64,000 bases of DNA from Tribonema minus. Its lineage: Eukaryota; Sar; Xanthophyceae; Tribonematales; Tribonemataceae. The stretch is from the NCBI GenBank assembly GCA_017506865.1, contig JAFCMP010000556.1:124001-188000 (forward strand), written 5' to 3'. The notes below the pieces were generated by a model. It was given only the letters and a program-made list of their open reading frames with translations. It did no database searches and was not told the DNA's origin. The translations under genes were made by a program, and so were the position numbers. This document shows, piece by piece, positions 10,121-64,000 of the stretch; position 1 is the first letter of the stretch; each line of letters begins with the position of its first letter.

Positions 10121-13100
10121 CAGCGACACAGAAAGCTGGAGGACGGAGGGCAAGCGACGGCTAAGCGCAAAGTCGTGGCCTTCGCCATCACGTTGACATC
10201 GCTGTCGGACGATGAGGAGGGGGCCGCCTACATAGATGCCATTGAGGTTCGTACTGTGAATCTGAAGATGATCGCCTGTGCAAGCAAGCGTGCAGATGAC
10301 ATGCCCAAGATGTCGAATGCCGAACACACAACCGGAGTCAAGCCCTTTCAAAATCTAGATACGTCCATGTGAAAGCGCAGTATCAAATGGTATCATGCTA
10401 CATTTACTGTCGTTCTTACAGCGTGTGTGCAGTGTGCACTTCCGTAAGCCGGCAATCAGTGTTGGGTAGATTGTTGTGGTGGAATTTTCTGTACATGCTC
10501 AAACCTGTGCTATCCCTGTACGTCAGGCGTGGCCAAGAGAAGTCATAATGCATCTCATGCATCATCCGAAGCTTGCGATGCCGATCAGCTTTGGCATGCT
10601 CATGCTTGTACGTGTGCGCAGAAGCATGCGCAATCCAGAACATGACAACTCCCCTGCCAGCAGTGACTACCAGCTCATGTTTGTCAGCACGTCTTCACCC
10701 TCCCATCAAAGTGCAGGCGCTTGACACGGCACATTTGTGCACGATTTGAACCCCGCGGCAAGTGCGACAGCGACATTGATCTGACCTCGCATTGGTGCTG
10801 TGCCGCCAGCGGCTCCACGAGTCAATGGCGCTCGCCTGCCGCCACCTGAGATTACTGCTGCTCACGCACACGCAAACGCTTACTGCGCAGTCAGACCCTT
10901 GCGTGCCACATGTGCAACAACAGCGTCACATTATTGATATGACCCCCCCCCCCCCCCCCCCAAGTCCCCCGCAACTCCGTACAGCTCGCACGCTGTCACT
11001 GACACCACCAGTGCAGGTCGCCGCTCTGCTGCATATGGCGGATGCTCAGCAGTGATACCTAACCTGTGCTTGCATTCAACTCGGCACCCGCATGCCGCAG
11101 GTCCTACGCAAGTCGATAGACCTCTCCTGCACGCACTCCAACCACCAATGTAAATGCCTTTGACACTTACCGGTGCAGATCGTCGTGCCGCCCGAATCTG
11201 GCGTCTGCTGACAGTAGTGCCCCTGTGCGCCTGCAACGGTGCCGCATGCTGCAGGTCTTGCGCAAGTCGATAGACCTCTCCTGCGCTCACTCCGACTATC
11301 AGTGCAAGTTTGTGGCACTGCTGGACCCCGAAGTGCCAGTGCAGCGGCGCTCTCTCCTCACCGCACATGGGTGGCGCGTGCTGGAAAGGGGGCTGCCACT
11401 GGACCTGGACACCATCAAAACGGACCTGAGGGAGCGGTTGAAGACCACAACCGCGGGCTGCTGTGGAGGTAAGGCGTGCGGACAGGAAAGGATAAGCTGG
11501 CCACTTGAACTTGCCTCACTGGTGTCATAGCGCTTGTCTAGGGGTGCTGCTGGAGCTTTACACAATCCTGCGCGGTTGGCTGCAGCAACGCCTGCTGCCA
11601 TCTTGAACACACTTGAACAAGTAGAGGTACTGCACCCCCCTGTTCTCGCAACTGCACGCAGTCGAGAATGTCAGTGCCAATAGTTTATGGTGTTGCCACC
11701 TGGTGTCAGCAGCCTGAGGGAGACTTGTGAGCGCTGCCTTGCCTGCTTATTAGTGGCAGGAAGGGGTGCACTGGCCACTTGAACTTGCGTCACTGGTACC
11801 AGTTCGCATGTTCAGGGGTGCCACGCACAATGCTGCGCGACGCAGGTTCAAGTGCATTGCATTGATATTCTTTTATATTTGAGTACTGTCAACGAGCAAC
11901 CTGTTCTTGTCGGTTTCCAAGTCATAGGTAGATGCTCTCAAATACAGTATGTTGCCCTTCGTAGCATTCAGTGGTGGTCTCATCTCAGATGAGAGCTGCT
12001 AGTGGTGGGTGGCCAGCTTAAGCGTGCTGGAATGCGCAGCCACAGCGCACCACCGATATAACCGAAGCCTTGCTCCCGCTGCTTGCGATTCTTCATCTCC
12101 GCAGTGCGAGTACAAGTAACCATTGCCATCACATGACCTCTTCAACCAAGCGCTGAGATGACAATGGTACCAGGGCAGGCAGTGCTGTGCGCAAAACGCT
12201 CAGTTGCCCGGCAGGGCACCCTTCTGTGCTAGCCCACTTACCAGCTTTTGCGCCCTGCTGCAACGGCAGTGCTCTTATTCGTGATTACGGTCTTGCAAGT
12301 CTCATGCGCGTGTGCTGCTGTTTGGATGTGCGCTGTGCGCAGCAAAGGAGCTCATCAAGCTGTGGGCGTTCACGCTGACAGAGTACCACAGGTGCGTCAC
12401 CCCTTCCCCCCTCCCCTCCCCCCCTCAAACCAGTGCTGATGCCCCAGCAAGTAAGGTGCCGGTGCCCAGTTCAGTGAAGGGGCTCTCATTCTCTGGCGCC
12501 TCCTCCTTGCATTCCAAAACTGCCGCAAAGCAAATGGCGTTGAGCAAACAACCTGTTTGGCTTGTGGCAGCCGTGCCCTTCTCATGGCACCGGCGTCATG
12601 GGCTCGCTGCAGCAGTCACGACACGCAAACAACGACATGCAAACAGGTGCCGCCAACAGCCGCTGCCGCTGTACGACCGACCCGGTTTTGACCATATGCA
12701 GCCCAGTTCATCTCAGACACCGTGCTTTGAAGTGGTTGCATTGTCTACATCAACCGCTCTGCTCTTCCCTTGCGGCATGAACCAGGCGCGCATCACCATG
12801 TACCTGCTTGTGTGATCTAAGAGCGCAGACGGAAGTCGTGGTATGCCTAAGCTATTAATTACGTAAGGCATGCGCACCCCAATGCATTAAAGGAAACGGC
12901 ATGCGCTTCCAAATATCTGCCTGCAGCTCGCAGCTGACGGCGGGTTTGAGTAACTTGCCAGAGGCCTCCTTTGTTGTTGATGCACAAACTGCAGCCACTG
13001 CTATGCCGCCATTGCCTGCATCCACTGCTGCGCCGCCAGTTCGCGAATTGGTCAAGCGAACGCCCAAACACATGCCTGGTCTACAATGCTGCACAGTCAG

Positions 13101-16100
13101 CTGTAATAGGGCCATCCGCCTGGACATAGACGCAATGACTACAAAACATGACCCCCCCGCCCCCCCCCCCCCTCCCCAGCGCAGACAGCAACAACCGGTG
13201 CGGCACTTACTCTCTATGAATCACCATTTTGCTGCGGACGCACTGCCTGCAGTCTCTGCAACGCGCTGATTCTGCCGCCTGCACTCCCTCTGACTCGTCG
13301 CCATTGCCGTGGTGCTGCCGCCTGCGACACAGGGTGATCCACGTGGACATTGACGCGATGGTTCTGCAGCCCCTGGATGAGTGGATCGCCAAGGACGTGG
13401 ACCTGGTGTACACGGAGGATGCCCCAATGGCCAGCAACAAGCACAACATGCCCGTTCAGGTGCTGCCAGAAGCACTGACTTCAAGTTGACTGACAAACAT
13501 ACCAGTAGGTGCAGCCCCCATGGCCACCAACAACATTCAGGTGCTGTCCCGAGGCGATGCCTTCATGTTGACTGACAAATTTAGTAGGTGCAGTATCAGA
13601 AATGTTTTCCGCTGCCGCTGTAGCGCCCATGCTTCCTGGTGCGGCATGGCAAATGTGAGGTTTGCGGGTGTGTCATGATGGCATATGACACGTGCAGCTC
13701 TGCCGCTGTTCAATTGGCGTGCAAGGTGTTGGTGTGCAAGGCACAGCGACCATGGCCACCAACAAGCACAACATGCCCGCTCAGGTGCTGTTGAGAGCAC
13801 TGACTTCAAGTTGAACAATGGAGATGCTGATAGATGCAGCATCAGGTGCTGCCAGAAGCAATGACTTCAAGTTGAACAACGGCAATGCTATGTAGTAGAT
13901 GTAGCATCAGGGATGTCTGCTGGCACCGTTGGCTCCCTTTCATGCATGCAGAAGGGTATATGCGAGGTGTACATGTGCGCCGTGCTGACCTGTACGCGAT
14001 GGTCTGCAGCGCTGCAGCTGCTTGTTTGTGTGCGATGGGTGCATGTGCTGTCGAGAACAGTGCACGTGCTCTCTACAGCTCTCACGCTGTACAGGCGCCT
14101 TGGCGGTCAGCATACGTCTCGCACTGCGCTTGCCAGCACTCCCTCCTGGCAGCCCGTCTGAGGCTTTGGCTCTGGTCTTACCTTGCCCACGCACGCGCAT
14201 GCCATGGCTGTCACCGTTCCTCTGTATCGTGATTTGCAATCAATTTTTAGTCACACCTGTGCTACTGTCTCATCTCCAGTGGTGACGAGCCAGTCACGTC
14301 TCTTGCTCTGACTCCATTTCCGCATGCGTGTCCATATGGGCAACTTGAACAAAACTGCACTTTGATGGTCACTTGACACGCAATCGCCGCTGGGCATCAC
14401 TGTTCTGCATGTAACCGCTATCCCATGACGATGGCATATCCAGCTTCTCATATGTCCAGGCATGGCCATCATGCTTATGTAGGCTGATGTTCCTACCTTT
14501 CACGCGACCAATAATGTCATATGTTGACCAACAGAACACACAGCCTGGCGCGTTGCTGTGACCGCAGCGTGATGTAACAGTAGCGTGAATGTTAGCGCGC
14601 TGCCACAGCCAGCCTTCTCTCAGCGTACGCGCTGGATGCCTTACCGCAATATTGACAACGGCAGTTGCGCGCAATTGTGGCAGGGGCCTTCATGATAGAC
14701 AATCACCATTTTGCTGCCACTATGCCCCCCCCCTGACGCCCCCATGGCGCAAAGCTTGAGCTTGGGCCTGTGCAGAAGGCTGCACCCCAACGCTTCAGCG
14801 TTTGGCCCTCTCAGCATGCAATGCAACGAAAGCTGGCAACAGTGCGGCTGCGGCACTACACCATTCATTGCCATGAACATTCACAATTTGTTGCCATGCA
14901 CATTCACCATGTAATTTTGTGTGCCATGCTCGTGGCCTGCAGGGTGGCTTCCTGCTGCTGCGACCTAGCCTGGAGATCTTCCAAACCCTAGTTGAGATCG
15001 TCCGCAAGGGGGACTTCACGGGAGATGGCTGGAACAAGAGCGGCATCGGGTGGTTCTGGGGTGGCGACACGATACAGGTGAAGTTGCAGAAGCGCTCTCC
15101 AACCCATCATGTGCAGCGCGTAGCGTCTCTGCGGTGACCTGCATTTGACACCATATAGCATGTTATCATCAGCTGCTGGCCCTCTCATGGCAAGTCTTAT
15201 GAGCCAAGTGGGCGTGAAGCGTCGGGAAACGGTCACGCAAGCCCCTGGGGCTGCACGCCACGGCTCTCCTGACTAACTGTTCAGCTGAGGCCGTGCATGC
15301 TCGAGCGCGCCGTTGGCCGTTGTCTGTGTGATCTGCGGTCTCCCTGCACCGCACCACCTTGTCGCAGACCTACGCAACCGCTTTGGATGCGCGAGTGCTG
15401 TTGCGATTAAACGCGTGACTGTCTTGTTGACAGCCTCATAGGGCGGGGGCTATGTTGGGCGCTGTACTGTGCACACCGTCTTACATTCATTGGTTGGTTC
15501 ATGTGCGATCGTCAGCAGTCACTGGTCTGCAAACACGCCCTGCTAGGTCGCAGCAAGCAGTGCAGCGGAATGCGAGGCGCCCTGGTGCGACAGGGCGCTC
15601 CCTGACACAGGGGGTCCCTTGCACCTGGTGCATATTTATTTCGGGACGGCCACTCCTGCCTAATCCATCGACGAAGGACACCTACTACTATTTGTAGTTC
15701 TACTGTTTGTGCTTGTCACTGCTAGAGCTCCGACACTCCAATATCCCGTGGGCCATGGCTACTCACGCCTAACCCTAACCCTAACCCTAACCCTGTGCAC
15801 ATGAGCCACGCAGGTCAGGGACCTGTGCAAAGAAAACGTCTCCAGCACCATCAAAGCATGACATATGGGGCGTGTTTGCCCGCTCACGCGCGTGCGCACT
15901 GCGCTCTACGCTGCTTGCAGGGTCTGCTCGCGTACTACTACAGGGCAGTCAAGCCGGAGAGGGCCTTCATTGCAGACCCGTGCGTCGTCAACAATATGCT
16001 CATCGACGATTGCAGAACGTGAGTGAGAGCGTGTGCTTGAATCCAACTCCCAATTTACCTCTAAACTGCACAATTACCTGGGCGAACGGCGCAAGTTTCA

Positions 16101-18629: not shown

Positions 18630-18756
18630 GATATATAATTGACTTTTGCGATTGCAACGGCCTCCGTAGATGGGGTTCCATGCGAAGCCTCCTAGCTCAG
18701 CACCCAGGGCTGATGCATCAGCATAGAAAGGGCAGCATTGCTGCTGAGGGGGTCTG

Positions 18757-19170: not shown

Positions 19171-19177
19171 CCAGCGC

Positions 19178-22100
19178 TCAGCGCCGCCAGGGATAGTTGG
19201 CGCGCTGGTTGATGTCGTACATGTGATTGTAGTCCTTGAGAACCTGCACCGCAGCGGAGCAGATGTAGGTGCATTCGTCAGCACTTGGAGTGAGGAAAAC
19301 ATGAGAGGAAAGCGGCGGGAGAGAGCCCTACGGCAATCGAGCAGCGATCTCTTCTGTAGTGGGGTGATGTGGTCCAGCCGCTGATGCCTGTGGTACGACG
19401 CTGCCTAAGGGGGCACCGTATTCAGGAGTCAGATGCTTCAGTGCCATTGCTCCGTACCGCGCATGCTCCGCACACTGCCGACGAGCATCCGTGCTACTTA
19501 GGCATCGCTGCTTCGGGCATTCAGTCCACTCCGCAGGTGCCAGAGTTGTCTCAAGCAGCGATGCACCATCCGCTTCACAACACTGTGTACTCACAGTGCA
19601 ACAATGGAGCTAACCACATGAACTACCATCTGTCCAACGTGAGGCTGACGTGCAGTGCAGGCTGCAGCCGATGCAATTGCTGCAGGCCAACTAAGAGACG
19701 GTGAAGTCTACACAGTCCTCGATGGCGTCACTGGCTGCGCCGCACTGCTGCATACATGGCAGGCACGTCAGCAAGGCTGGCTGGCCAATTGCACTGCGGT
19801 TGACGTACCACTTCATCGCGACAATTGCCGTGCGTCTCCCATACAAGCAACTCACCATGTTTGTGAGTAGGAGGCGACTCAGCGCGCAGACGCGTACTAC
19901 ACACGCCTGCCTGCAAGCAGGTCGCATCACCGCCTCAACAAACTGACATGATGCCCAAAGACGTTTGAAGTATAACTTGAGGTACCGCAGCGTGCACTGT
20001 GGAGGCAGCTGTGCAGCATGCACACCCTTAGGCATGACCTGCGCTAGCACCTTTTCAACGCATCATAAGATTGCACGAAGGTTGGATTTCTCGAAATAGA
20101 ACACGCCCCGTCAGCTCCTCCGCCGTGACATATTCCATACTTGGTGTATACGGACGTACTTCAAGCAGCAGGCGGTGGCGCACCTCTGCCATATGGGCAT
20201 CAGCGCAGCGCGACGGGGGCGACCCATCGAACCTCACCAAAAACTGTCATTCTTACACTTGAAGTACTGAGCGTACTTCAAGCAGCAGGCAGGGGGCGGC
20301 GACGCACCTCGAGCCCCATGCGCACGTACAAGTCATTTTTCATACTTGAAGTATTGAACGCACTTCAAGCAGCGGGTGGTGACGCACCTCGAGCCCCGTG
20401 CGCACGTACTCGTCATTTTTCATACTCAGAAGAAAGTATTAAATGTACGTAAGACAGCAGGCGGGCGGTGACGCACCTGGAGCCCCGTGCGCACGTACTC
20501 GCCCTTCGCGGCGCGCCCCGTCAACTCCTCCGCTGTGCTAAATTGTGCTGCTTGCAGGCGGCATGTGCATGTCTCGGTGCACAAAACCTGCCCTTTTTTT
20601 TCATATTGAGCGCAGTTCAACAGCATGCAGTGACACACCTGGAGCCCCTTGCGCACGTGCTCATTCTTCCCCGTACGTCCAGTGAGTTCCTCCGCCGTGA
20701 TGAGCGCGTAGTCGAAACTGACTCTTCTACTTCTTTATTACACGCAGCTCAAGCAGTGACGCACCTGGAGCCCCGTGCGCATGTAACCGCCCTTTGCGGC
20801 GCGCCCCGTGAGCTCCTCCGCCGTGATCAGCGCGTAGTCTACGAACGTCACCGTGTTGAGGTAGCGCTGCGCATGGTTATTCATACATGAAGTATTGAAA
20901 CTTGAAGTTCAAACAAACTTAAACAGCAGGCGGGCGGTGACGCACCTGGAGCCCCGTGCGCACGTACTCATTCTTCGCCGCACGCCCAGTGAGTTCCTCC
21001 GCCGTGATCAGCGCGTAGTCCACGAACGTCACCGTGTTGAGGTAGCGCTGCGCGTGGTACAGGCCGCGTGCGGCAATCTTCCTCGCTTCATCCTGGTGCG
21101 TGTAGTAGTAGTGAACTTTGTCCATAAAGTCCTGCTCATCGGATGCGTCATACATGACAATGTGCCAGCCGCTGATGAGCGGAAACTGTCGCGGTGCCCA
21201 CATGAGGTCCACTACGACCATGGCGCCCGCTGATAGAGCCTCTCCCGTTCTGCAGTGAAATTAGACAGCGAGGGATGCGTGTGCTGAGCACTTGGCGATG
21301 TCGTTTAGGAGCAATCGGCAATGCTCAATGAGACACCTTTGAAAAGTCACACTCTCAAGGTGTTCACAGGACGCACATAGATCATGATCCCAAGCTGTAC
21401 ATCCACCATCTGGGCTTTTTCGTGCCCTGAGCATGCGGTCCACCAGGACCATGGCGCCCGCGAGTGGAGGATGAGTGGCGAGGGCTGGGCGATCCTGTAG
21501 TCGGTGAACTTCATGCAATTAACGTGTGGGTCGGTTTGTGCCGCCCCCATGACTGAAGGGTACATGAATTGTACTCGAGTGGCAGACCTTTTGGACTGCG
21601 CAAACTAGTCGGGACGATGACATCGTGTCCACCCCCTCCCATTCTACAGGCACACACGCGGTGCAGTGGTATGTGCATGGCAAGCTAAGCTTGGCGGTAT
21701 GGTATATATGCGCGTGAAACGTCCCCCGTGCAGTTCACATTTCGGGCAGTCCATCCAGAGTCCGCCTCGTTTCACCATTGGGGCGCAGAGTTCCAGGGCT
21801 TGTGATATTCAGCACAAGCCCTAAAGAGGTGCCCAACTTGCGTATGCTTTGTTGTTGCGTGTTGAAGTACTTCAAAATACAAAATTTGATCACTACTTGG
21901 CAAGGCTTGTGACATGCGCCAGGTCCTGAGTGCCCCCGGCCGTGCATCAAAAGTCATACATATATGTTGTGAAGACCTACAAATGCCTGCCTTCCAGCTC
22001 CACCACCACTCTTTCGACGCCAGTGCAACGTGCGCCATCAAAGCGTGCTTCAGTGTATGTGAGCAAGTCTCTCACGCTTGATCGTCATTCTCACTCGTCA

Positions 22101-25100
22101 CTGTACACAGAAACGCATGCTGGCAGGCACAGCACCCTTGACATGTTTATCACCAGATAGTCTACATGATGCTGTGCTGCCGCTATGAAGTGCGCGCTGC
22201 ACACCGCTTTTGAAAAGGCAGCACCGCAAGGCACCAAGGGCATGGCATACATGCATTCAATCAAGGTCCACATTGAACTATCTGCACTACCTCACAAGTG
22301 TACACAGTACACATACTCCAAAGCACTGCAGTTTGCCTTCAGCCTGCACTGCCTCACAGGTGTACACTACACTTACTGCAAAGCACTGCATGTGAAATTC
22401 CGCGCACCTGTGATCGCCCTCCCAGAAAGAGGGGTTGCACGTGACCAGGAGCTTGGTGTCCCAAAGCACCTCAAAGTAGCCGCGGTTGGTCTCGCCGCGG
22501 TTGCCATCATTGGTGCCATGGTAGTAGTTGGTGATGTTGTGCTCGTCAATGTACCTTTGCATCCGTCGCTGCGCGGGCGTGCAAAGCGCATGCAACCATG
22601 TGATGAGCATTGCACCATGTCAGAGAGGCGTGATGCTTCATGTATCACAGTGAAGTCCAGTGGAGACGAATCAAAAGATCGTAGGGACAAGCTGTGGTTA
22701 GTGACAACGAGCATCGCCGCTGGCGCTGCGCGTCATGCGCATGGATTGTGGCGCAGGCGTTGCCAGCTCGTTGCAAAAGCCGTGAGCACATACAGTAGCT
22801 AGAGGGGCAGTATTATGTGCCAGAGCCTCACGTGCTGCGCGAGCAGTTTGAAAAAAGCGCGTGAAACGCTGCAGTAGGTGATGTTGCTGCACGCGGTGAG
22901 TGAGCGGGGAGCACTGTCCCCATATACCTATACATACCCCTGTGACACGCAAGATGATGTTGTACTACCGCTCCTGACCACTCTCAAGCCCCACCTGTGC
23001 CATGGTGCGCGCGCCGACCTTGACTGCAATGAGCTGAACTGCACTTTACCTGATGGCTTTTTGCCCTTGAGTAACAGAGTGGCAACACTACTAATAACAA
23101 GTACATACAGCAGCAGATCTCACATGCAACAGTTTGAGATCAGCGCGTGAAACGCTGCAATGTGTTGCACTAGCGCTCCTGACCGCCCTCAAGCCCCACC
23201 TGTGCCATGGTGCGCGCGCCAACCTTGACGTTCTCCGCGCCCGAGCCCTCTGCGTACTCTTCATAGAAGTCGTCTCGTAGCAGCGTTGCGATGTCGAGCT
23301 TCCGCTCGTGCCACTGCGGAAAGGACCCCTCGCGCAGAAACCGCTGCAGGATGGGGTACTGTATGGGGAACTTGGACGGCCGTGTCGTCGCCGTGACGTC
23401 AAAGCCCAGGAGCTGCTTGACGTACTCGCTCGTGTCCTTGTTCACGAAGCTGCGCTTGAACCACGCCAGGTACTTGGTTTTCTTGTAGCTGTGCCAGGGG
23501 GCGCTGCAGGGGAAAAGGGGGGGGGGGGGGGGGGGGGGTATGTAGGTATGCAGCAGTGAAGGAAGAGTGAATTTTGGGTCAGCGTGATGGATGACAGCGG
23601 CGCGCGTTGGTTTCTGCCTCACGCGAATGCAGCAGCGGCGGCAGCAGCAGCAGTAATAGCAGGGGCAGCCGCGCCAGCAGTGGCAGCTGTGCTCATCCAC
23701 AAACCCAAGGCTGACCCTGCCTTGGCCTGAATGTAGCGGCGGCGTGTGTAGCGGCGGGTGTGCCTGTAACTTAGCCTCCTGAGTGCACGTACGGTGCAAT
23801 TACAGCGCACTCGCGCGTGACGCCGGAAGTTGATCGCACGTCTGTAGGCCGCGCACTTCATCAGCCTGAGGGCCACAGTTGAGCGTGTGCCCAGCCAGCA
23901 TACACGGTGTTTTGCGTTTACAACCGGCAGACGGCTGCCACACCCCTTAGAGCCTGCCAGGAAGTGCAACCTCAATGTACTTTGAGGAATGCACGCGCAT
24001 GGTCAATGATGCGACTGCACGGCACAGTTAAGCGTGCGCCTTGTCGCAGCAGCCTGCATTGCATGCAGCCTGAGCCTCAGGGTCCCTCGCCTGCAGTGAA
24101 ATGCGAAACGATGACCTTACGTACTGCACTCGCAACATGCCAGCGCGCCCTGGCCATCATGCCTGCGTTCATACGCCGCTGTTGTGCTGGATTGTGATCT
24201 GAAAGCAGACAGTCCGTCCATCGGCATGTGCGCTTATGTGACGAAAAAAGGCCACCGCCTCAGCAAAGGTGAACAAGCGGGTCAGGTGCGCTGTCTCAAT
24301 GCCCACCTGCCAGTGAGTGGACACTGGTGATGAGAGTCAGTCGCGCCGCCACTCACTCATTCTGCATCACACAGCTGAAGATCACGGCCGAAGATCACGA
24401 GTGAACAATCATCCTAACCGTGCCAGCGTATGGGGCAGACTGAGGGGTGGGCTGTCACTAGTGCGCGCATCATAGCTGAAGATCACAGCTGAAGATGATC
24501 GCGCGCGAACAATCTAGCTGCGCGTTTCCGTGCCAGCGCATGGGACAAACTGGTGAGGGGTGGACTGTCACTAGCTACTCAGTGCGCACCAAGTCTTTGG
24601 GCTGTACCTGTCGTCAGCCTCTTCAACCCACGCGCCCTCTACGTTGAGGTCCGTGCCGTCAGACTCATCCATGATGAGTGTCTTATTGGGAAACGGCCCG
24701 GGGCACACCCTCCCGTCTTCCTCGTCCCTCATCTGCTCGTCCCTGTTTGCAATGTAGAAGATGTAGTCTGCGTCCTCGTGCCTGTCAGAATGAATCAGGT
24801 CCAGCAGGGGGTGCATGTGGATTCCCTCCCTGACCTGCGGAGCGTGGTTGCGCGGACTGGCGCTGAGCGGCGGTGGTGGCATCGCTCAGAATCACTGCGC
24901 CAATATGTCGGCAGTATACGGGCACAAATTCATATTATCAGTAAGAACTTCTGGGGGTCTCAGCCGCTTCAAGTGGCCGACCTTGGCAGATTCTGCAACG
25001 CCAGTGGCCTGGGGCTGGTCGGCAAGGTGAACCACTGCAATGCTCCATCGCACTTAGCCTAGTAGTCTGCTGGACCAGGTACTGCTATTAGTAGCATGCC

Positions 25101-25780: not shown

Positions 25781-25971
25781 TGCCCTCGGGCTGCTCGGGC
25801 TGCCAACCGTGCCAAAGCTGTGTGTCTCGCAAAAAAACCTCAAAGCTCAAGATCAACTTGAAGAACTGATGTTGAAGTGTGATGGCAGGTGATTTTTTTG
25901 TGGTTTTTTCGCTCGATTGTATTTATCCGCAGCAACGCGGCTTGCATGAAAGGAGGAGGTAGGCGTTGCCG

Positions 25972-28900
25972 ATGATGCTGCGGGCGTTGGTGCCACTTGT
26001 ACTGCTTGGGAACCTGATTCACTGCAGCTGGGCGACGCCGAGTACGAGCGCGAAGCAGCAGGGATTGCGCTCGCTGCAAGAAATTGAGAACGAGCAGCTA
26101 GAAGGGGAGCTGGTACCCGGCGTCACCAAAGCCATCGACAGGTTTTTGCGAGGACTTGATGTGAGTTGACCGCAGTGGCAACTGCTTGCAGGAGCCAGAG
26201 CTTTCAAGCTCGGAGGATGTACCACATCATGATATGTTTTTTCAAATCATGATCATGTGCAAACATCAACAAATTGAATCTCAAATTTGGGAAAACGACT
26301 GCGGACGATGGTCAAGATGGAGTGGCACGTTTGTGCAGAGGGCCTCTTGTGGCGTAACTGTTAACGGCTTTAACTTGAAGTTGTCAATGAATGACCACTA
26401 GTACTGATAATTTTTTGAAAGGGGCCCGCAGCGGCCCCGGCCGTTGATGCAGACGGTCCATCTCTCAGGCTGCACTCCGGTTCTAAGCAAACGTGTTCCT
26501 GCAGGGCTTTGACAGACCAAAGGGCGCTTGGAGTACTCACAAGACAGTCACTGCAGAAAAGCTAGTCAGCTGATGCAGCATTGCAAAATTTAATGGCCAT
26601 AGGCAGCCGAGAAATAGAACAGCATTCATACAGCTCATATTGCTTCAAGACTTAGTATGCATCTGCCAACAGCATGGGTGTGATAGCAGCCGTGTGACTG
26701 TACAAAAGCTCATGTCGTTGAGCACTTGCACACTGACAGAGCTTTCAAATTGAGCAGAGTCGTATAGCTACGCACTTAATAATATGGCATCATGCAGCAA
26801 CTCACATGGTGTGGTGGCCCGTGATCACAAACACGAGCACACCTTAGACGACGGTCCGTCATGACGGAGTCGAACAGCACGACGGCTAATCTGACCGACG
26901 GAGTCGTGCATACGACGCACTCGAGTCAGATCTGGTGTGCTTGACAATGTGTGCAACAGTGCTGACAACGGCAACAGTATCATCCAGCAGCAGCAGTCAA
27001 CGGCGTCGTGCAGATGGCGGATATCCTGAACTCCTCAGGAACAGACAGTTGACATAGTTGAAGTTATGTTTAGTCAATCTTTGAGCACCCACACGCATGC
27101 AAAGGCGGTGTTAGTAATACATAATGTCATGTCATCTACTTCAAAGTATACGCTGCCAGCCTGCGAAGCAATGTTGCCGCAATCACTCAAAAAAGCATTA
27201 TTTTTGGCTCGACAGAACGGAGCGGAACTGCGGCAACCATGAGCAACAGACGTCTTGCAGACGACGGAAAGCGCAGCATTCTTGTGCGACTCTGTCGTTC
27301 AGACGACAGCAAGTGCGGCTGCCGCACTCGTATGCGACGGTGTCACGACAGAGTTTTCATTAGCGCTGCCGCGACGGACTGTCGCGAGTCCATCGTCTGC
27401 GTTGCGCTGTCATCTAAGGTGTGAAAACCACAACACTACTGTCTAAGGTGTGAGCATGCGCGTCAGTGCGCGTGCGTTGCATGAAACGCCGCGCATGTAT
27501 AACCTAAACGTCAGCGATGTGTGCCATGGGCTTGCCAGTGAAGTTCTCATGCGCGCAGCATGCCTGCCTCCCACCGCAGGACAAGTATGGCGAGAAGTAC
27601 AGCGACACGGTGTTCGCCAACGGCTGGCACGACCTGCCGGATGGGGGTCAGGCCGTCATGGACCGCATGCTGGGCGCGATTGTGTATCAGCGCACGTTCC
27701 ACGTGTCCTTCACGGGCATCAGCAACACGGCCGGGCACGACAACATGGTGAGCAACTTGAATCGAATTAAGTTCGGCCGCTGCGCAGCCGATGATGGTCA
27801 CCTTGCTTAATAATAAAATCCCAAATATGACGTATGCGAGCCGCCAGTTCAAAGTTTGCGCTACATTGAAACTACAGACTTGATGCGAGAAATGGCTAGC
27901 AGCGTTCGTGGCAGATGTTTCAGTGTATGTGGCATGCCATGTGCACGAAGGCATACAGCACAGAAGCCGTCAGGAGGTCACCTAACCTCGAAGTTCATGT
28001 ACCAGTGCTCAACCACCGTAGGTCGCCATTATAAATGCATGTACTATCATAATGACAACAGAGCTCAGGGAGATGTCGAGGTTCCGGAGCCTCTGTTGAC
28101 CAATATATACAAACACGAATGCAGAGCAAACACAGTCCTTTTGCCGCCAGGTACGTCACGTCCTCGCCCACCTGATAATCGCCACGTCACATCGGTGATC
28201 CCGAAAGGACCATGCTGGCCTGGTACAAGTCGCCAAGGACACGCTGGCAGTGCGCTCTGCCACAGATCCCTCAAAGCACACACACATGTTGCCGGGTTGA
28301 GCGTGGCCACTCTTGCACTGGAGTGCGCTCACAGTGGCCCCCTGCCCCCCCCCCCCTCCCCCTTGTGTTCGGCGCGCTCCGCAACGGTGCTTCGGCGTCG
28401 CAGGAGGAGAAGGCCTACTGCAGCAAGAGCAGGCCTGACCCTAGCGGTTTGAGTTGACTTTTGCACCCGTCTTTGCGAGAGCCGGCACCTAATGCACATA
28501 AGCACATTACTTACCTACCATTGCCCTTCGCCGTCACGTCACTACCGCAGAAAGAGCAGGCGTGCTTGACCGCATGCAAAAATTAGCACATCACTGACCT
28601 ACCACTGCTGTTCACCGTCGCTACATACCGCAGAAAGAGCAGGCGTACCCCTGGCACTTTGAGACGATCCTCGCACCCGTCTTTGCGCGCGCCGGCGTTG
28701 ACTTCACCGCCTCCAACGGCGCCATCGGCAACAACGACATCCTGCCGTACAGCTACTGCATGGAGGCGCACGCGGGCGCGCACCCCGACATTGTCAGCTG
28801 GGAGGTGCGTAATCAAGCGCGTGCTGTGCATACATAGAAGTACATAGCCTTATCAAAAAGGCCACTGTATGATTCAATAGTCTCATGAGGCCTGTGCCTC

Positions 28901-37228: not shown

Positions 37229-39019
37229 CCGCGCGCGCGCGCGCCGCCTGCGCATGTCTGCGCGCTGATCGCGGACGCTGCTCGCGGTCTGCGAGCCGTC
37301 ACCGCTGATATGGCGTTGCGTACGGCTGGGCTCAGCCTGGACGCGGCAGTAGAAGTAGCCGCGAGCGTGCCTCGCCTGCAGATGCCTGCGCGCTGGCTGC
37401 GGCGCGCGGCGCTTGCGGTCTGCGAGCTGTCGCGATTGGTATAAACCAGTGGCAGTGTGGCGTCACGTACGGCTGGGCTCAGCCTGGACGTGGCAGTAGA
37501 AGCTGGAAGCAGAACTGTATGCGTGTGCCGGGAGAGGGCAATGGGTCCCAAAGTGCATACGCGCAGCGCTGAGCGTTGTGACGGTGTGTCGAAGTGCGTG
37601 GTGTGGGCGGCGCCTGCAGTGCAATGCCGTTCAGGTAGAGCGTACGCAGCACGGCTACTGCTGCGCACGTCGCACTGTGCGTTGCGCAGCAGCGGTGTCT
37701 CTGCGCAACGCATCATCAAAGCGTCTTTGTGTTTACATCCCATCCTGAATGTTTGCGACTGCAGCGGGGCGTACGTGCCATGCGTGTGAGTCGGCTTCAC
37801 TTCCTCCACTGACCGACGAAAGTGCTCTGGATTCACACCTCCCAACAGCTATGGCTGGCTTGCAGGCAGAACCAGGCCAGCCTGGACCACAAATTCTGAT
37901 TGCGTGCGTGCCTCTGTGCTTGATAACTGCACAAGATGCCTGGTGGTTACAGTCAGCACAGATCCCTCTATTAGTTGGTAATACAGGTTTGAGTTCATCA
38001 TGTGCCTCTGACTCTCAAGCTGCTGTACGCACACATGCCCTGTCTCTTGAAGTGCCATATGAATGTCCCTGATGTAGACTACGAAAGTTTCTGTACATGT
38101 CAGCATCCATCAGTAATGCAGGGGAGTGATTTGCCGGACTAAACATTCCTGACGTACATTGTGCAATTGCATGTGCGAATCACAACGCCTCCATGTCAGC
38201 ATCCAACTCATCAATAATACAGGAGAGTGTTTTGCTGGACCAAACGTTTCTGACATGTGCACGCTATGCAATTGCCTGTGCGAATCGCAACGCCTCCGTT
38301 TCTTGTGGACCAGACATTCTTGCGCACCGGCAGGTTGAACTTGGTGTTGAACAAGCGCAAAACGCATGCAATTGTATCTGGGTTGCACCAGGGCGACACT
38401 CTGCATGACACAGGTGCCCAAGTCACTGCTTGTGACCGCAGCATGGGGTGATTCTAGCTTGGCAGTGAATATAGCATCAACATGAGTGTTGCAGATCTCT
38501 GCCTATGCACTGGTGCAAGCACTAAAGACATGTCAACTGGTACACCATGGACAATTACAAATGAGACAGGAGTCAAGAAGTCAGATGTAGTAGTCTTGCA
38601 GACTAGGCTGCATAGGATCAAACTTCACCATCGCATAGAACATCCGGCATCCTTCAAGGCCTCTATACATACAGGTCCATGAGTACTCTCGCAGACGTAC
38701 ATGCATGAGTGAACAGCACAGCCCATGCTGTGGCTTCTCACGCTCAAGCACGTGCAATGCGCATGCATCGCATTCTGCCCCTTGCGCAACCCTGATCCCT
38801 CATTTCCCATCGTGCCAGGGGGGTTGCATCACCCAGACCCCCTTGCCATATATGGGGGTGCAGAGCCCCCCCGCCCCCCCAGTGATAACCAGTGGCAACA
38901 TCGCCTGACTTGCCAGCTGCAAAGGGTTTTGGGCAAATGCGATGTCGGTGATAGCCTCTCCTGCGTGAGCAACCTCTGCCGCCAGCGACGCCGCGACGCT
39001 GCCAGCAGCACAGTGTTGG

Positions 39020-39055: not shown

Positions 39056-39098
<43 letters not shown>

Positions 39099-53430: not shown

Positions 53431-53800
53431 AGGTGATCTTGCTGCTGACTCACAGGCGTAGGAGGCGTCAAATGCACGCGCTAGTGGCACCATGCCTCGC
53501 ACTCACCGTATGTCACGACTTCTCGCAGTAGTTCACTATTCCACAACCGCCGAGTAACTAGCTGACTTGAGCATGAAGTGCATCTTTGCCGCTGACTCAG
53601 ACTTTGCTGCTGACTCAAAAGGCGCATGAGGCGTTGACTGCGTCACCAACGACACCGTGCTTTGCGCTCACCGCATGTCATGAAGGCCTGCCTCCTTGTG
53701 CAGACAACCACTTGCTGACTTGGGCATGAAGTAGATCTTTGCTGCTGACTCGCAGGCGCATGATCGTTGCGCGCACTCACCGAATGTCATGAAGGCCTGC
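53430..53800 (-). repeat. Copies of methyltransferase exon 3 end plus donor-like site
   Basis: Three units of 110-170 bp each contain CTTGAGCATGAAG or CTTGGGCATGAAG, TGCTGACTC and then GC(A/G)CTCACCG(N)ATGTCA. On the coding strand the last part is GACAT(N)CGGTGAG(T/C)GC, the end of exon 3. The copies at about 53495 and 53660 are decayed and the real exon end is at 53777-53815. Confidence 0.8.
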
Positions 53801-56214
53801 CTCCTGGTACCGCGTCTCGCCCGTCATCCACCCCGTCGCGTCGTGCCGCCAGAACATCTTCAGGCCGCAGGCGTGCATGATGTTGACGATGGCGTTGACT
53901 GCGGGACTGGAGCCGCCGCCGTAGCGCGCGTCGAATGAGTAGTGGTGCCACTCCAGCGTTACCTGCAGGGTTGAACACAGCGTATTTTGTGAAGTCTATT
54001 GCTGTGTTTAAATGCCCTTTTGTGGTGGACAAGTTTGCTCGGGATCGAGCAGGCAGAGTCACCAGACAACACAGCATACTTTGTGAAGTTTATTACTAAG
54101 TTCAAGTGCGCCTGTTGCGGTGGACTGCATGCTCGGAACCGAGCAGAACGCCACATGATAGTGGTGCCATTCCAGCGTTACCTGTAGGGTTGCGCAACAG
54201 CGTACTCTGAGGTGATTTCTGAGTTCAAGTGCGCATCTTGTGGTGGACTGTATGCTCGGAATCGAGCAGACTCGTCACATGCCCCGCGAATTCGCCCTTC
54301 ACGCAGCACGTTATCATGTTGAGGTATGCTCAAGACGTATTCCTGGCTGCCAAATACGCCCCAAGTACGCCGTATCTGTGTGGCGTAATGGAAACGAATC
54401 AAAAGATTGTAGAGCTCTAGGTGACAAGGAGCAGTTAGCCGCAAGTGCCTTCCACCGTTAGCCGTGGTCGCCACTTTTGCAGCCATTGGCCACGAGTCAA
54501 ACAGTGCCATCATATGCATACTAGAAGTCAAAAGGCTTCGGTTTGCAAGCTTTTCTAGCATTCGAGGCATGTAATACGTTTTCGTGCAACCCTACTACTA
54601 GTAAGTTACCTGTTTTGCAGGCAGGCAACCCAGGGAGTCCAGGGCGTCCTCCAGGAGGGAGAACTCGGACCCCTCAACGTCCAGTTTCACTGCAGAAGTT
54701 GCAGTGCGGGGCATCAAGGCACAGAACTCACTCAGAGGCGCTTTGCAGTTGAAGTTACCGTCCTTGGCAAAGGACACACACATACGTTTGCCCTGCAATG
54801 ACTTTGATGAACATGGGTTCTTCGCTGCTGCCCCAATACGACTGCAGGCACGGTGTCAGATCGCACTGTGACTGATTCTGGCGGTGAGCATCATGTATGG
54901 CAATACACCACACTGTCAGGTGCTGTTGACGGAGACCTGATGATCATTACTAACCAAGAGTGCAGTCGTGAAGGTGCAACCCTACATAAAGAGACGTCAG
55001 GTGCTGTTGACAGGAACCTAATGAGCATGACTGAGCAAGAGTGGAGTCTCGTGAAAGTGCAACACTAACAAGATCAGCAGTCGTCACAGGTGACAGTACT
55101 TTACGGCAATGCCTGCTCACTTGCGTTGCAACACTAGCGATATGACTAGTTGTTGCAGATAGCAGTACTTTACGGCAATGCCTCCTCACTAGCACACTAA
55201 GCAGGTGTGGCAGGTGACAGTGCTTTGCGGCAATGCCTCCACACTAGCAAAATAAGCAGGTGTTGCAGGTGACAGTACTTTGCGGCAATGCCTCCACACT
55301 AGCAAAATAACCAGTTGATGCAGGTGACAGTGCTTTGCGGCAATGCCTCCTCACTTACGCAGGTCAATCTCGCGCCCCTCGTGCCCCAGCTCCTTCATAA
55401 TGGTCCCTAGCGTCTTGACCGGCAGGGTGAAGACGTCCTTCGGGTTGTCCTGTGGGTACACGTCGCGCACGATAGACACCTGCCCCCAGTCATACTGATG
55501 CAGCTGAATGTCGCCGTCCGTGCCGGCTGCGCCGTAGGGGTGGAAGTGGTAGTTGGGCAGCTTTGCCACCTCGCTGGTCGGGAACCACTTCAGGGTGATA
55601 GGGCTGGGGTCGAAGGCGTGAACCTCGCAGTTGAACGTCTTCGCCATGACCTCGCCGAACTCCGGATCCTCCCTGATGCCGAAGTCGTAGACGAGGCAGT
55701 TGCCTTGCCCGGGTGTCCAGTCATCGAGGCAGACGTCATGGTCGAAACTGCCCGGGCACTGATCCCTCCCGGCTGCACAGCCGTACTCGCTGAGATTCGA
55801 CATGTGTTTGCAGGTGGAGCTGTACTTGGCATTGAAACCGAAGAACGGGTCCTTAAGCCAGCCGGTTGCAGAGGCAACCTTCAGCTCCAGCAGCCTTAGG
55901 CGTTGAGACGAGGTCAGGCCATGCGGAATCCGCACATTGGTCACATCGTCTAGATACGAGCGAGCTGGCCCGACGGGTGTAGCAGGTGCGGCTGCTCCGT
56001 TCTCAGCTTCTCTGGCTGATTGTAGCTGCCGCAGCTGCTGCTCCTCGAGCTCATGCACTCTATCTGCGAGCCTGTTCAATGTCTCCTTTAGTGCCTGGGA
56101 GCTATCGACGCCACTGCTGCCCAGGCGCAAGCCAACCAACACAAGCAGCAGCGCACCGCCTGCTATGAGGCCAATTGTAAGCCTCCTATCGCTACTGTGG
56201 CTGACCTTCCCCAT
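53777..56214 (-). CDS. Membrane-anchored FkbM/METTL24-like methyltransferase
   Basis: Exons 56214-55359, 54689-54610 and 53962-53777 join in phase to give 373 residues. A hydrophobic segment at residues ~14-31 (IGLIAGGALLLVLVGLRL) after a basic N-terminus makes a type II anchor, followed by a short coiled coil (LNRLADRVHELEEQQLRQL). The catalytic part contains CLVYDFGIREDPEFGEVMA (SAM-binding loop region), VHAFDPSPITLKW, and across the first junction IDLLKLDVEGSEFSLLED, the FkbM/METTL24 signature. The last exon has VTLEWHHYSFDARYGGGSSP. The family methylates sugars or small molecules using SAM; here an extracytoplasmic glycan is the likely target. The TGA at 53777 overlaps a good donor (CG|GTGAGT), so a further exon is possible. 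All three exon edges have tandem copies in the introns. Confidence 0.8.
54135..54190 (-). repeat. Copy of methyltransferase exon 3 acceptor side
   Basis: CTACAG followed by GTAACGCTGGAATGGCACCA matches the exon start at 53962 with two synonymous changes in the first eight codons and then diverges. The flanking phrases TGTGTT/GTTGCGCAA, GTGGACA/GTGGACTG and GCTCGGNATCGAGCAG also recur around 54040, 54125 and 54250, so the unit extends into intron DNA. Confidence 0.8.
55085..55350 (-). repeat. Five tandem units at the exon 1 donor of the methyltransferase
   Basis: Units of about 60-65 bp share GCAGGTGACAGT(A/G)CTTT(A/G)CGGCAATGCCTCC(T/A)CACT. They begin immediately beyond the exon 1 donor (55358) and march into the intron, with identity highest in the middle units. 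The donor itself (TGCGTAAGTG) survives only next to the exon and is degenerate in the copies. Confidence 0.9.
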
Positions 56215-56793
56215 CTGCACCTTTGAGAAATCCTCAACTCAACCTCAAGTTGAACTCACCTGGAAGGTTTTGAAGTTTTTTGTGTCGTGGGTTAGGTATG
56301 CAACACTCCCTTAAACCCTCACTTCGCCGACAGGTTAGTGACAAGTGCATCATGAGAAGTCGGCGTCGCTGCGGCGCAAAAAAAAATACAAGTCTCAGCA
56401 CTGCGCACCTCTCATGCTTGCACTTCAACTTCAACTTCACCTCACAGGACTGTAGCCCTCTTACATTTTGATGACATCTAGATGACATATTCGCCTGCAG
56501 CTAGAAAATCCTGTCGCCTGGACTGTTTGTAGCAGCAACTGCCAGACTTGCAAACCAGAACGATGAACAATCGTGCTGCTCAGAGGCCAACCGACTAAAC
56601 CTCTGATTGCTCCAGAATCTACCAGCAAAGCACGAACACCGCTCTCATGCGCACCACACACAACGTTCTGCAGCCACCGACAACTGCAGTCGCGTCAGAC
56701 ACAGCCACAGCAGCAACGCCACGTGCAAGCAGACAGCGCATCCCGCCACACCTCATAATCACATCCCCCACATACTGGTATTCACAGCGTTCG

Positions 56794-59700: not shown

Positions 59701-62700
59701 GGGACACTGGACCGCCATGTCTTCAGGCGCCTACCGCAGGGCTCTATCGGTGCACACGGGCATGCCGCCCTAACATTCTCCACAGCAGACCAGAAATGCG
59801 CGCGCGGCGTGGTGGCTCTGCAGGCATGAGCTGCTGGGGAGTGTGCGGCGTGCCCGCTCAGCTCATGCTCAGCATTACTGTTTGCACCAGAGTCTTCCCA
59901 GTGCCTGCTTCCCCAGATGGTGCGCAAGCAAGGCAAGCACTGCCTATAACAATAGGCCCGCCGCCCTCGCAAAGCTGTGCGCCGCCCCCCTCCCCCCCCC
60001 CCCCCCCCTTGCCTAGCTACCAGCATTCAGCGCCCTGAAGGCCCTTCCACCTGCTCCAAGAAGGCATCAAACGCTCTTGACTTCTGGAACCGCCGCGTCA
60101 CCACAGACACACAAAACACACTACAGCAATCGCTCCCTCTCGCCTGTCTCCATGAGCGTCTTGCCGAGCTGGTGTGCGGGCGTCTGGCACGCGGCCGCCG
60201 CACAGGTCAAACTGCTGCAAGCATCGTGTCCCCCAGGACACACAAACACAGTACGGCGATCGGCCCCTTCTCGCCTTCTGCATGAGCGTCTTGCCAAGCA
60301 CCAGAAGACGTGATCGACCCCCCTCACCTTCTTCATGAGGGTCTTCCCGAGCTGTTGCGCGGGCGCCCCCCCCCCCCCCGCATAGCTCACACTACTGCAA
60401 GCACTGCATCACTACAGACACACAAAGACACAACAGCAGTCGCTCCCTCTTGCCTTCTTCATTAGCGTCTTCCCCAGCTGGTGCGCGGGCGTCTGGAACG
60501 CCCCCCGGAGGCCCTTCCACCTATGAACTCTGAAGAAGCATTGCGTACTCTGAACTACTGCAAAACACACTACGCCAATCAACACCCTCACCTTCTTCAT
60601 GAGCGTCTTGCCAAGCTGGTGCGCGGGCGTCTGGAACGCCGCCCCCCTCCCTGGAGGCCCTTCCACTACGCACTCTGACGGCATCACGTGCTCTGAACTA
60701 CAGAACTGCAGGCACCGCATCACCAAAGACACACACAAACACTACACCAATCAATCCTCTCACCTTGTTCATAAGCGTCTTGCCGAGCTGGTGCGCGGGC
60801 GTCTGGACCCCCCTCCCCCCTTCGCCCTTGCGACAATGAACTGGAGGCCCTTCCACCTACTCCAAAGAAGCATCATTACACGCTTTCACTACTGCAGGCA
60901 GCGCATCACCAAACACACACAACAGCAGACAATCCTCCTCACCTTCTTCATGAGCGTCTTGCCGAGCTGGTGCGCGGGCGTCTGGAACGCCGCCGCCGCG
61001 CGGTGGCTCTGCAGGTACGGCCGCCCGGGGGGGTGCCGCCCGTTGCCCCTGTCTGCTGCAGCAGTGCTCAGCACGCGTCCCGCGTCGCGCAGCCCCGCCG
61101 CCTCTGCTGCGAGCTTGTCGTTGTCCTCCGCCTTGCGCTTGGCCTTGAGCTTCTTGATCTGCGCCTCCAGGCCCTTGAGCTCCTCCCTGCAGGGGGGGGC
61201 GGGGGAGGGGTTCATCATCGTGTCAGTGCTGGGGGAGGGGGAGTCAGCACAAAAGGCGCGCAGTGGCATCGGTGCGCGGGGGGAGGTGGGCGTGTGCTCA
61301 TCGTCATCGCGTCAGTGTGCTCAGGGCATCAGCAGGAGGGGGGGGGGGGGGGGGACGTGTGTGGCAGTGCTCAACATCGTCATGTCAGCGCTCAGGGGCA
61401 TCAGCAGCGTGCGCGCGCGGGGGTGGGGGCGGGGGGGCATGTTGGGCGTGTGCGGCAGTGCGCAACACCATCGTGTCAGTGCTCAGGCATCGGCAGCGAG
61501 GGGAAAAGGGGAGGGGGGGGGTCAGCGCGCGGTGGCGTCGGTGCACGGCCCTGGGGGCCCCGCACCTCCCCTTCTCCGGGTGTAAGACAGGCGTGCGAGT
61601 GACGGCGTGCAGGGGCATACATAGGGGCACACACGCGGCTCACGGCCCTGTTGAGCTGCTCGCTGCGGGTTAGGGTTGAGGGTTAGGGTTAGGGTTAGGG
61701 GGGGGGGGACATGGGCACGCGCGGCGACAGCGTGGACTGGCATCGCGTCAAAGAGGCCCCTGCAGCTTCTCTGCTCGGTGGGCAACGGATGTGTCGTGGT
61801 CAGCACAGAAGGGCGGCGACAGCTCCGCGTTGGGGTGCGGTGCGGCAAGTGACTTGCGAGTGACTTGCAATCGAGGCGCGCAAAAAGCTCAGCTCATTGC
61901 TAGGCGAAGGCCTGTGATGACATGGTGTGCAAAACTCAATGTGACAGTGCTGCGCAGCACTTCACATAACAACAAAAGGTGTGTTAGCGCTGATCTTTGA
62001 CCACCTGCTCCTGTCGCAGTTGGAGAACATTCTTCAGGCTGTGCAATACCCGCTGATATGCGAAAGTTGTGTCTACTGTTGGGCATGCTAGTCTGACACT
62101 GAGCAACCACACGAGCCATAAGCGCCTTGCAACGGTTCTCGGCCCATGAACTGGGGTTAAGGATACCTACTGCATACATACCAGTAAAGTATAAGGTACT
62201 TCGCCCCATCGTTAGCAAATATGAGGGGGGTGGCATCTGCACAGCCTTCTGAGCATTGTTGGCACATTGACAGCATGCCCTGCCTGAGTGGACCATCAAG
62301 GACGCTTGCTTGAACAACGGCGAGCCCGCACGATTCCACAATTGGACTATCATGCCTCGAGAGTGCCAAGCTGCAGGTTCTGCCCCCCCCCCCCCCCCCC
62401 TCCCCTCCCTAAAAGTCTAGCATAACCAAGACGCTCAGTTGCGCGTCCACCTCCCTCTCAGGGCTGCATGACCACACTGTGATGTGTGGCCCACAACTGC
62501 TAAGAGGTATATGGCTTTCAAGCACTGAACGATTGCATGTATGTAGCAAGGGTTATCAAAATGAACTTGACAACTAAGCGACCCCTCTTCGACAAGGTTT
62601 AAGTGTACGCATGTACTTCACAGAGTAGGATTGAAAAGTGAGGGTAGGCAAGCTGGACTTGCCTGAGCGACTCCTCTTCCCGCTCCATGGCGTGTGTCTT

Positions 62701-62871
62701 GCGAAACTGCAGATCCAGCTGCGCAGAAGTCACACGAACCAGCGCAAAACCTGACGGTGAGTGCCTTGCCAATCGCATCCTACACTAACATTGCAAACAA
62801 CATGCTTCTCGCTCGACCACCCGCCCAGGCTCGCCGGGGTTGAGCATGGGGAGCGCCGTGCAGTGCAGCGC

Positions 62872-62906
<35 letters not shown>

Positions 62907-64000
62907 GGTTGAGACTCTCAAGCAGCCTTGCGCGGTCACGCAGGCGTATGTACACGAGATTCACGGGCACTTCCGCCTGGCATGATTACCATCCCTTGTC
63001 ACCTAGAGCTCAGCGATCTTTTGATGCGTTTTTCATTAGGGTGTGCAAATATCATACATCTAGTACCTGTTCCACTACAATATGTATGCATCAAGAGGTT
63101 CAACAGTGGCTACCAGACCTAACCAAGGGACAGAGCGCGTTCAGCATATTCAGCTGCTGCGAGCAATGTCATTGCGTGCGCACGAGCTGTGGCAAACGGC
63201 TGCACCTGTGCCCGGATTCCCACGCGTGCTGTGCGCATGGCACCAGCGCGACACTTCGACTGCTCCACGCCACAACAGTCATCACACCACAAAAGTCCTA
63301 CTTGCTCCACTTAACGCCCTCCCGTGTGCTCTCGCGCCCGGTCTACCACAAAGTATGAACTTCAACAAGTACATTACAGTGCTCTTCTTGGAATAATTGT
63401 GCAGCACGGGCTCATTGCGCCGCGTGCCGCCCATCACACGCCCATGATCCCTTGGTGAAGCATTCGGGTCGAACGCCGCGCCCATGGCCATTAGCCAGAT
63501 GGCGGCACCGTTGCTGCCGCAGCGCCCCCCCCCAGCCCCCTCCACAACCTCCCACCGATGCGCAGCACGCCTAACCCTAACCCTAACCTTAACCCTATAA
63601 CCTAACCTAACCTAAACCTAACCCTAACCCTAACCCTAACCCCAACCGACGCGCTCCAAACCCGAATCAAGCTCACATGCTCTCAAGGCGCATGCACCCT
63701 TGCTCACCACCCCACCCACATACTCCAACCCCTACCAGAGGCTCAAGCTCACAGCGAGTATGCACCCTTTGCTTGCCCTAAACTTCGACAGCAACTGTGC
63801 GCGGAACCACGCCTGCACCAGCCTTGACCTCACGCGGCGCGCCCGTGCTTCCCGTAAACTTCAACAGCAACTTGAAGTAAGCGCGGAAGCAGTAAGCGCA
63901 CCTGGTGGCGCCGCTTGCGCTCGTACTCCCTGTCGAACGCGTCCGCGCCCGGCGCCGCCAGCAGCCCGCCGATGGCGCCGCCGCTGCCGCTGCCGCCTTT
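56794..64000 (-). CDS. Coiled-coil protein with basic C-terminal tail (5' end outside window)
   Basis: Six exons join in phase: 64000-63902, 62718-62663, 61186-60943, 59403-59332, 57836-57741 and 57009-56794, giving 260 C-terminal residues. A Gly-rich stretch leads to DAFDREYERKRRHQ, then MEREEESLREELKGLEAQIK and KKLKAKRKAEDNDKLAAEAA, a strong coiled coil. A Pro/Ala segment ending FQTPAHQLGKTLMKK follows, then DALKKDVVTLLTLQKVVAKK, QQQQ and a disordered Gly tail with PTKRKST and GKGKRIKK, likely nuclear localisation signals. I do not recognise the family; a nuclear scaffold or chromatin factor is possible. The second exon seen has a GC donor (CAG|GCAAGT) supported by phase. Exon 59403-59332 is the least certain. 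Introns contain tandem exon-end copies and telomere-type repeats. Confidence 0.65.
60130..60942 (-). repeat. Six or more tandem copies of a coiled-coil exon end plus donor
   Basis: The real exon ends at 60943 (coding HQLGKTLMKK|GTGAGG). Copies of its last 30-60 coding bases with the donor lie at about 60762-60815, 60588-60645, 60455-60505, 60328-60365, 60270-60300 and 60140-60195. Intron phrases GGAGGCCCTTCCACC, CTACTGCA and ATCACCA(A/C)A(G/C)ACACA repeat with them. Several copies keep the Leu-Gly-Lys-Thr-Leu-Met reading. Confidence 0.9.
61338..61354. repeat. Poly-G tract in intron
   Basis: Seventeen G in a row, within a wider G-rich minisatellite (61190-61520) containing several GTGTCAGTGCTC(A)GG and GGCATC words, upstream of the exon starting at 61186 on the minus strand. 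Confidence 0.8.
61667..61700 (+). repeat. Interstitial telomere-type repeat, (TTAGGG)n
   Basis: Five TTAGGG-type units with one variant (TTGAGGG), running into a poly-G stretch. It lies in an intron of the coiled-coil gene. Confidence 0.9.
62383..62400. repeat. Poly-C tract (18 C)
   Basis: An uninterrupted C run followed by TCCCCTCCCT, in an intron of the leftward coiled-coil gene. Confidence 0.85.
62872..62910 (+). repeat. Interstitial telomere-type repeat, (TTAGGG)n
   Basis: Six units, one of them TTTAGGG. Same orientation as the array at 61667. Confidence 0.9.
63420..63535 (-). repeat. Diverged copy of the 63902-64000 exon region
   Basis: On the plus strand, GTCGAACGCCGCGCCCATGG, GATGGCGGCACCGTTGCTGC and GCCGC follow the same order as GTCGAACGCGTCCGCGCCCG, GATGGCGCCGCCGCTGCCGC in the exon at 63902. 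The leftward reading GAAIWLMAMGAAFD parallels GGAIGGLLAAPGADAFD. It is probably an older duplicate of the exon within the next intron. Confidence 0.5.
63570..63646 (+). repeat. Interstitial telomere-type repeat, (CCCTAA)n with variants
   Basis: About twelve CCCTAA-type units with CCTTAA, CCTATAA and CCTAA variants. It runs opposite to the arrays at 61667 and 62872. Confidence 0.9.

Follow-up and report, generated by a model that had tools for sequence, protein, structure and literature searches.

Do the copies of exon ends that lie in introns of the yellow-green alga Tribonema minus betray a process acting on splice junctions, or could duplications that ignore gene structure have left them? 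The question was raised by a stretch of 64,000 nucleotides (hereafter the window; contig JAFCMP010000556.1, positions 124,001 to 188,000, or C553:124001-188000) from an assembly of 158 Mb in 554 contigs. An earlier note had described, in genes of this window named GT8, anchored GT, SGNH A, methyltransferase and coiled-coil, introns holding one or more copies of the adjoining exon end with its splice site. The pattern is real, yet chance duplication and selection account for most of it. The copies are probably neutral or nearly neutral local tandem duplications that are blind to gene structure and were afterwards filtered by selection.

Junction copies in the window and in paralogs

Transcript-derived proteins (EukProt TRINITY entries, whose source may differ from this strain) were aligned splice-aware to the genome. 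They placed GT8 (P0014, 98% identical), SGNH A (P0005, 88% across the whole alignment, with the tail located separately), anchored GT from exon 3 onward (P0003, 89%) and paralog A of anchored GT (P0002, 99%); the exon edges of the first three genes agree with P0014, P0005 and P0003 respectively. Paralog B of anchored GT was delimited by the database model P0001 and the methyltransferase edges by an ab initio hidden Markov model (HMM) gene finder together with the methyltransferase paralog. The coiled-coil exon edge came from the gene finder alone, and gene models outside the set of seven described below are likewise ab initio. The finder was trained on 264 kb, later on 297 kb, and learned donors like CAG|GTRCG and acceptors like CTGCAG|C. 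Manual placement was used for the starts of first exons, for one acceptor of paralog B and for the edge of the last SGNH exon. Repeats were taken as local direct matches of at least 40 bits, at most 1.5 kb apart, with simple repeats filtered, and a junction copy had to cross the exon edge by at least 8 bp on both sides.

Self-alignment of the window, the check proposed in the earlier note, yielded 52 direct repeat pairs at close range (<2 kb) and not one inverted pair at that range. One Markov-resampled window (n=1) produced no matches against 180 rows in the real sequence (>=40 bits, <=1.5 kb), therefore the copies are not due to chance similarity. Identity between copies ranged from 67 to 97%. 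At 12 of the 13 junctions named beforehand, a nearby direct copy spans the exon edge.

In GT8 (plus strand), an upstream copy accompanies the acceptor of exon 11255-11468, the edge of which was taken from P0014 (11000-11307); here 11000-11153 repeats 11161-11307, with 53 nt being exonic. The donor of exon 13333-13459 is followed by intronic copies at 13536-13593, 13752-13814 and 13842-13875 (whole region 13427-13875) in which CAG|GTGCTG is visible, the first and last alignments being nearly devoid of exon sequence. In anchored GT (minus strand), exon 5 (20946-21249, edge from P0003) has five aligned intronic copies of its end and donor (20246-21058), and the donor of exon 3 (23200-23503) has one, 93% identical, at 22958-23024 (22958-23229). 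SGNH A (plus strand) holds two copies upstream of the acceptor of exon 28634-28804 (28416-28696; edge from P0005) and further ones upstream of the acceptor of exon 29823-30062 (29410-29910). Exon 34807-35115 is flanked on both sides, by an acceptor copy at 34547-34611 (34547-34854) and a donor copy at 35357-35389 (94%; 35092-35389). The last SGNH A exon (about 37067-37225), which was taken as exon 12 of the earlier note, has an array upstream of its acceptor (36422-37089), and the edge used in the counts, 37070, is about 3 nt off. Exon 3 of the methyltransferase (53781-53962, minus strand) has an acceptor copy at 54155-54269 and a donor copy at about 53664-53699 (53664-54269), the intron side of the copy at donor 53781 being just 8 bp. 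A predicted coiled-coil exon (60943-61186, minus strand) is accompanied by an array of copies of its end and donor (60033-60999). The thirteenth case, methyltransferase exon 1 (55359-56238, minus strand), did not hold up: its 55-bp array (55062-55359) only abuts the donor, the units lack exon sequence and their donor-like sites are not intact.

Junction copies were also found in two paralogs of anchored GT (A and B) and one of the methyltransferase, all on contig C212, at some of the same exons and at some different ones. The seven gene models together have 34 introns; a copy is present at 19 of their 68 junctions, and 52 duplication events were counted, of which 22 cross a junction and 30 are intron-only. 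Two more rows were rejected, each lying at an exon edge of paralog B. Four of the seven genes had been picked by the earlier note because the pattern was present. Removed before counting were the window models of a leucine-rich repeat gene, its neighbour, a retroelement-like locus and 36376-37781, 38 exon calls judged to be copies, and simple-repeat matches.

The donor array of anchored GT exon 5 shares units with paralog A at about 76-86%, and one of its copies is 89% identical to the window's own exon, which suggests that the array was built in several rounds. No array was detectable in the corresponding intron of paralog B. A tree of the copies was made from sequences too short for firm support. 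Searched genome-wide, one array (window 20001-20600) gave 12 matches, confined to its own contig and the paralog contig, and Rfam returned no match at gathering thresholds.

Two further observations concern these genes. Judged from P0005, SGNH A exon 6 apparently ends at a GC donor (CTGCAG|GCAAGG, 32121-32138). The methyltransferase intron 53963-54609 (minus strand) is absent from the C212 paralog, where its two exons are contiguous. Direct CAGGTAAC flanks both ends of this intron, and two dispersed families with at least dozens of genomic matches at 83-88% lie inside it. It may have been gained here by insertion or lost in the paralog, alternatives that two genes cannot tell apart.

The splice site lies inside the copied unit in 43 copies that align across it. 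GT is kept in 23 of 24 donor copies and AG in 15 of 19 acceptor copies, three of the four misses being edges placed about 3 nt off. Part of this intactness is to be expected: one member of each pair, the real site, is under constraint, and members of an array do not count as independent. The earlier note had suggested that copied sites might serve as decoys or alternatives; they are mostly intact, but no use of them was seen in the transcript proteins examined. Copies are absent from P0002, P0003, P0005 and P0014, few transcripts whose source may differ from the strain, and among three isoforms of an SGNH paralog the differences consist of missing blocks, never of added copies. Two annotated models, by contrast, appear to include one copy each. 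In the database model P0001 a TGEALAAGAM segment is doubled, and the alignment puts it in an intronic copy at 90829-90876 of block b212. P0015, a GT8 relative from a contig of 1,449,981 bases, has a doubled GLLAYYYR segment, which the transcript protein P0016 lacks. Both models appear to hold phantom exons made from junction copies. Protein self-comparison reported internal repeats nowhere, not even in P0001 and P0015 where they are visible by eye, and was uninformative.

Junction crossing compared with random placement

Local direct duplication is common throughout the sampled sequence, at 9-27% of bases per block. The survey covered about 294 kb of one genome in non-randomly chosen blocks (the window, b212, b553 and c100), of which two come from the contig of the window, one from the paralogs' contig C212 and one from elsewhere; a 3-kb block, c300, was left out of all duplication counts. 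At the main threshold local direct repeats make up 15.7% of the window, 15.1% of b212, 8.9% of b553 and 27.1% of c100, and a different threshold gave 12.7%, 14.1% and 13.2% for the window, b212 and b553. Near pairs were inverted in 8 cases against 200 direct in b212, and in none against 78 in b553. Duplication also appears between two apparent haplotigs (C90:766001-769500 and C179:154251-157750, 95.5% identical over 3.5 kb): one tandem duplication of 72 bp is polymorphic and lies where there are open frames but no exon was called. Equal-scoring kinase matches suggest a further haplotig set, C144/C223/C278.

Introns carry much local duplication, and in this the reading of the earlier note is supported: local direct repeats make up 24% of the sequence of the 34 introns, compared with 12% in exons. 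Duplicated bases rise with intron length (Spearman 0.59), but so do non-duplicated bases (0.73), so the former correlation is no proof of cause.

When the length of the alignment was taken as the duplicated unit, 22 of 52 events in the seven genes crossed a junction against 6.3 expected (3.5-fold), and 28 of 79 in ab initio models against 8.9; in b553 it was 1 of 13 against 1.0. This null overstates the enrichment, because what aligns looks like the remains of longer units after erosion: reading of the sequence revealed the rest of the unit, with indels, at two sites, the acceptor of GT A exon 2 and the donor of GT W exon 3. Copies abut in 14 of the 52 events of the seven genes and are spaced in the other 38, and in 27 of these the sequence between them shows homology to the flank; for other predicted genes the figures are 13 of 43 and 17 of 30. 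In most events the duplicated segment thus looks like a whole tandem unit, with a period equal to its length. A view of the copies as spaced insertions was considered and abandoned, since the sequence reading and the spacer test favour eroded tandem units for most of them. With the offset as unit, other predicted genes gave 15 of 43 crossings against 10.8 expected (P 0.071).

Several results weigh against placement without regard to junctions. Under the offset null, still without correction for decay, the seven genes gave 22 of 52 against 14.0 expected (P 0.005, 1.6-fold) and all events 37 of 95 against 24.8 (P 0.002). The excess held at higher identity, with 16 of 32 against 8.7 (P 0.002) at >=80% and 11 of 20 against 6.1 (P 0.012) at >=85% in the seven genes, and 14 of 34 against 9.3 (P 0.042) at >=85% among all events. 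By alignment length, it was present in the window (8 of 20 against 2.4), b212 (11 of 30 against 3.1) and c100 (8 of 16 against 2.4), and in introns of <=1,200 bp (14 of 21 against 4.6). Requiring only the intron part to be detectable left 10 of 61 against 5.3 (P 0.029). The full unit was not shown in 11 of the 38 spaced events, seven of which cross a junction. The exon parts of donor copies seem better conserved than expected from decay at half the rate of introns, the array copies being non-independent. An exon-masked test in which 26 of 81 events touched an edge against 3.1 expected points the same way; it was set aside, because its null takes no account of units cut short by the mask.

Part of this excess is removed when decay is taken into account. 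In a neutral simulation, constrained exons (omega 0.3-0.1) gave 28-32% junction-crossing events, and unconstrained ones 23-25%. The shares seen were 42% (22/52) in the seven genes, 35% (15/43) in other predicted genes and 39% (37/95) overall. Against a proportion of 0.30 the binomial P values are 0.04, 0.29 and 0.04 respectively, and against 0.32 they are 0.08, 0.40 and 0.09. The comparison of junction copies with random placement, which the earlier note had called for genome-wide, is in the sampled sequence marginal once corrected for decay, at an excess of about 1.3-1.5-fold. The remaining junction excess is modest and marginal, not zero, and a junction process is not yet needed. The suggestion of a process acting on splice junctions is therefore not clearly supported, with 30 of 52 events being intron-only and the excess shrinking as the null improves, although a modest excess stays.

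Two other procedures do not enter these figures. A profile of coverage by distance from the junction was about flat over the edge and intron; it was replaced by the event-based nulls, because an edge can be covered by the outer copy only, which the profile ignored. A first simulation with HMM introns and guessed unit lengths expected 11-22% and was superseded by the neutral one.

Explanations of the copies

According to the explanation we favour, local tandem duplications, mostly at an offset of about 60-450 bp, would arise genome-wide regardless of gene structure. Where a unit spans one exon-intron edge, the outer splice site would join the same exon, and the second exon end with its site would become intron and be tolerated. 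Duplications wholly within exons would mostly be removed. An edge-crossing duplication leaves the protein intact only where its additional copy is turned into intron, so the intron-side bias follows from selection: that copies lie always on the intron side, as the earlier note stressed, is compatible with the data and is no sign of a special process, as purifying selection would leave the same picture. The intron would afterwards drift through indels and further duplications, and the copy adjoining the exon would be the last to become unrecognisable, since selection preserves the real exon and splice site with which it pairs. Indel decay and repeated duplication are visible within the arrays, while the selective filter and the near-randomness of the breakpoints are what we infer.

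Tandem duplication might instead be initiated more often at exon-intron edges, through R-loops, base-composition steps or microhomology (CTGCAG/CAGGTG), and so lead to junction-centred intron growth. The residual excess of about 1.3-1.6-fold, which persists in the more identical pairs, is in line with this, as is the finding that 10 of 24 events cross a junction in the paralogs outside the earlier note's choice (GT A, GT B and MT b). We nevertheless regard edge initiation as doubtful, given that the excess shrinks with a better null, is lacking in b553 and is not significant in other predicted genes, and that crossing events differ widely in their exon and intron parts. It is also unlikely that the edges are true duplication hot spots, the AG|GT arrays retained and re-amplified decoy or recursive sites, and the introns structures growing outward from their ends; if so, the GT donor array common to two paralogs on different contigs at about 76-86% would be a retained array.

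That copies were kept for a function, as decoy, alternative or recursive (AG|GT) splice sites or as alternative exons, is improbable. The high retention of GT and AG and the apparent splicing-in of a copy in P0001 and P0015 speak for it; yet the real site is selected in every pair, and decay at half the rate already predicts high identity, the array copies are not independent, and neither the four transcript proteins nor the SGNH paralog isoforms contain added copies. Intron gain through tandem duplication of an AGGT-bearing exon segment, the Rogers model, involves the same type of mutation and a known mechanism (PMC3443670). At >=40 bits, the donor region of no ab initio intron examined matched the acceptor of that intron, and even with weaker traces possible below that level this origin is most improbable. 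Tandem repeats are hard to assemble, but an assembly artefact is very unlikely, because the copies differ to the degree given above, carry indels inside units, and recur as a pattern in the C212 paralogs. Local duplication blind to gene structure, followed by selection, accordingly remains the reading we prefer.

Other features and relation to known systems

Elsewhere in the window, a gene for a leucine-rich repeat protein lies at 635-1769 (minus strand), and long open frames at 3006-9697 (minus strand) form a retroelement-like locus with an RVT_1 match under the curated cut-off. Two 90-bp direct copies at 2775-2955 are AACTTCAACT-rich and partly self-complementary. Interstitial TTAGGG-type telomere-like runs occur at 61667-61700, 62872-62910 and 63570-63647.

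Segments inside genes are reportedly duplicated commonly, as Gao and Lynch are said to have found in 2009. The copies described here resemble that internal gene duplication in being common within genes, and differ in that here a short piece of exon is turned into intron. In the potato RdRp gene, a tandem duplication across one intron-exon boundary gave rise to a new intron (Ma, Lan and Niu 2016, PMC4974935). The likeness lies in a direct tandem duplication across one edge that copies the splice signals, and in further intronic tandem duplication in the potato gene; the difference is that a new intron was formed there, whereas none is seen here in the transcript proteins examined and a single gene can have several affected edges. 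The tandem-duplication (AGGT) model of intron gain (PMC3443670) concerns the same kind of mutation, but the mapping of donor onto acceptor was not found in the introns examined here. Introners (PMC9860276) likewise add intron sequence, whereas the array examined here is not dispersed. Among the titles listed in a literature search, none concerned junction copies in Tribonema introns. Overall, what these introns show is likely internal tandem duplication of the known kind, in large amount.

The three paralogs show how heavy local tandem duplication can lengthen introns and seed intact splice sites in them while the proteins stay unchanged. Gene predictors can be fooled by such copies: 38 exon calls of our own finder are likely copies, and P0001 and P0015 seem to hold one each. 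The genome of T. minus is well suited to testing whether duplicated splice sites get used, and how new exons and introns begin.

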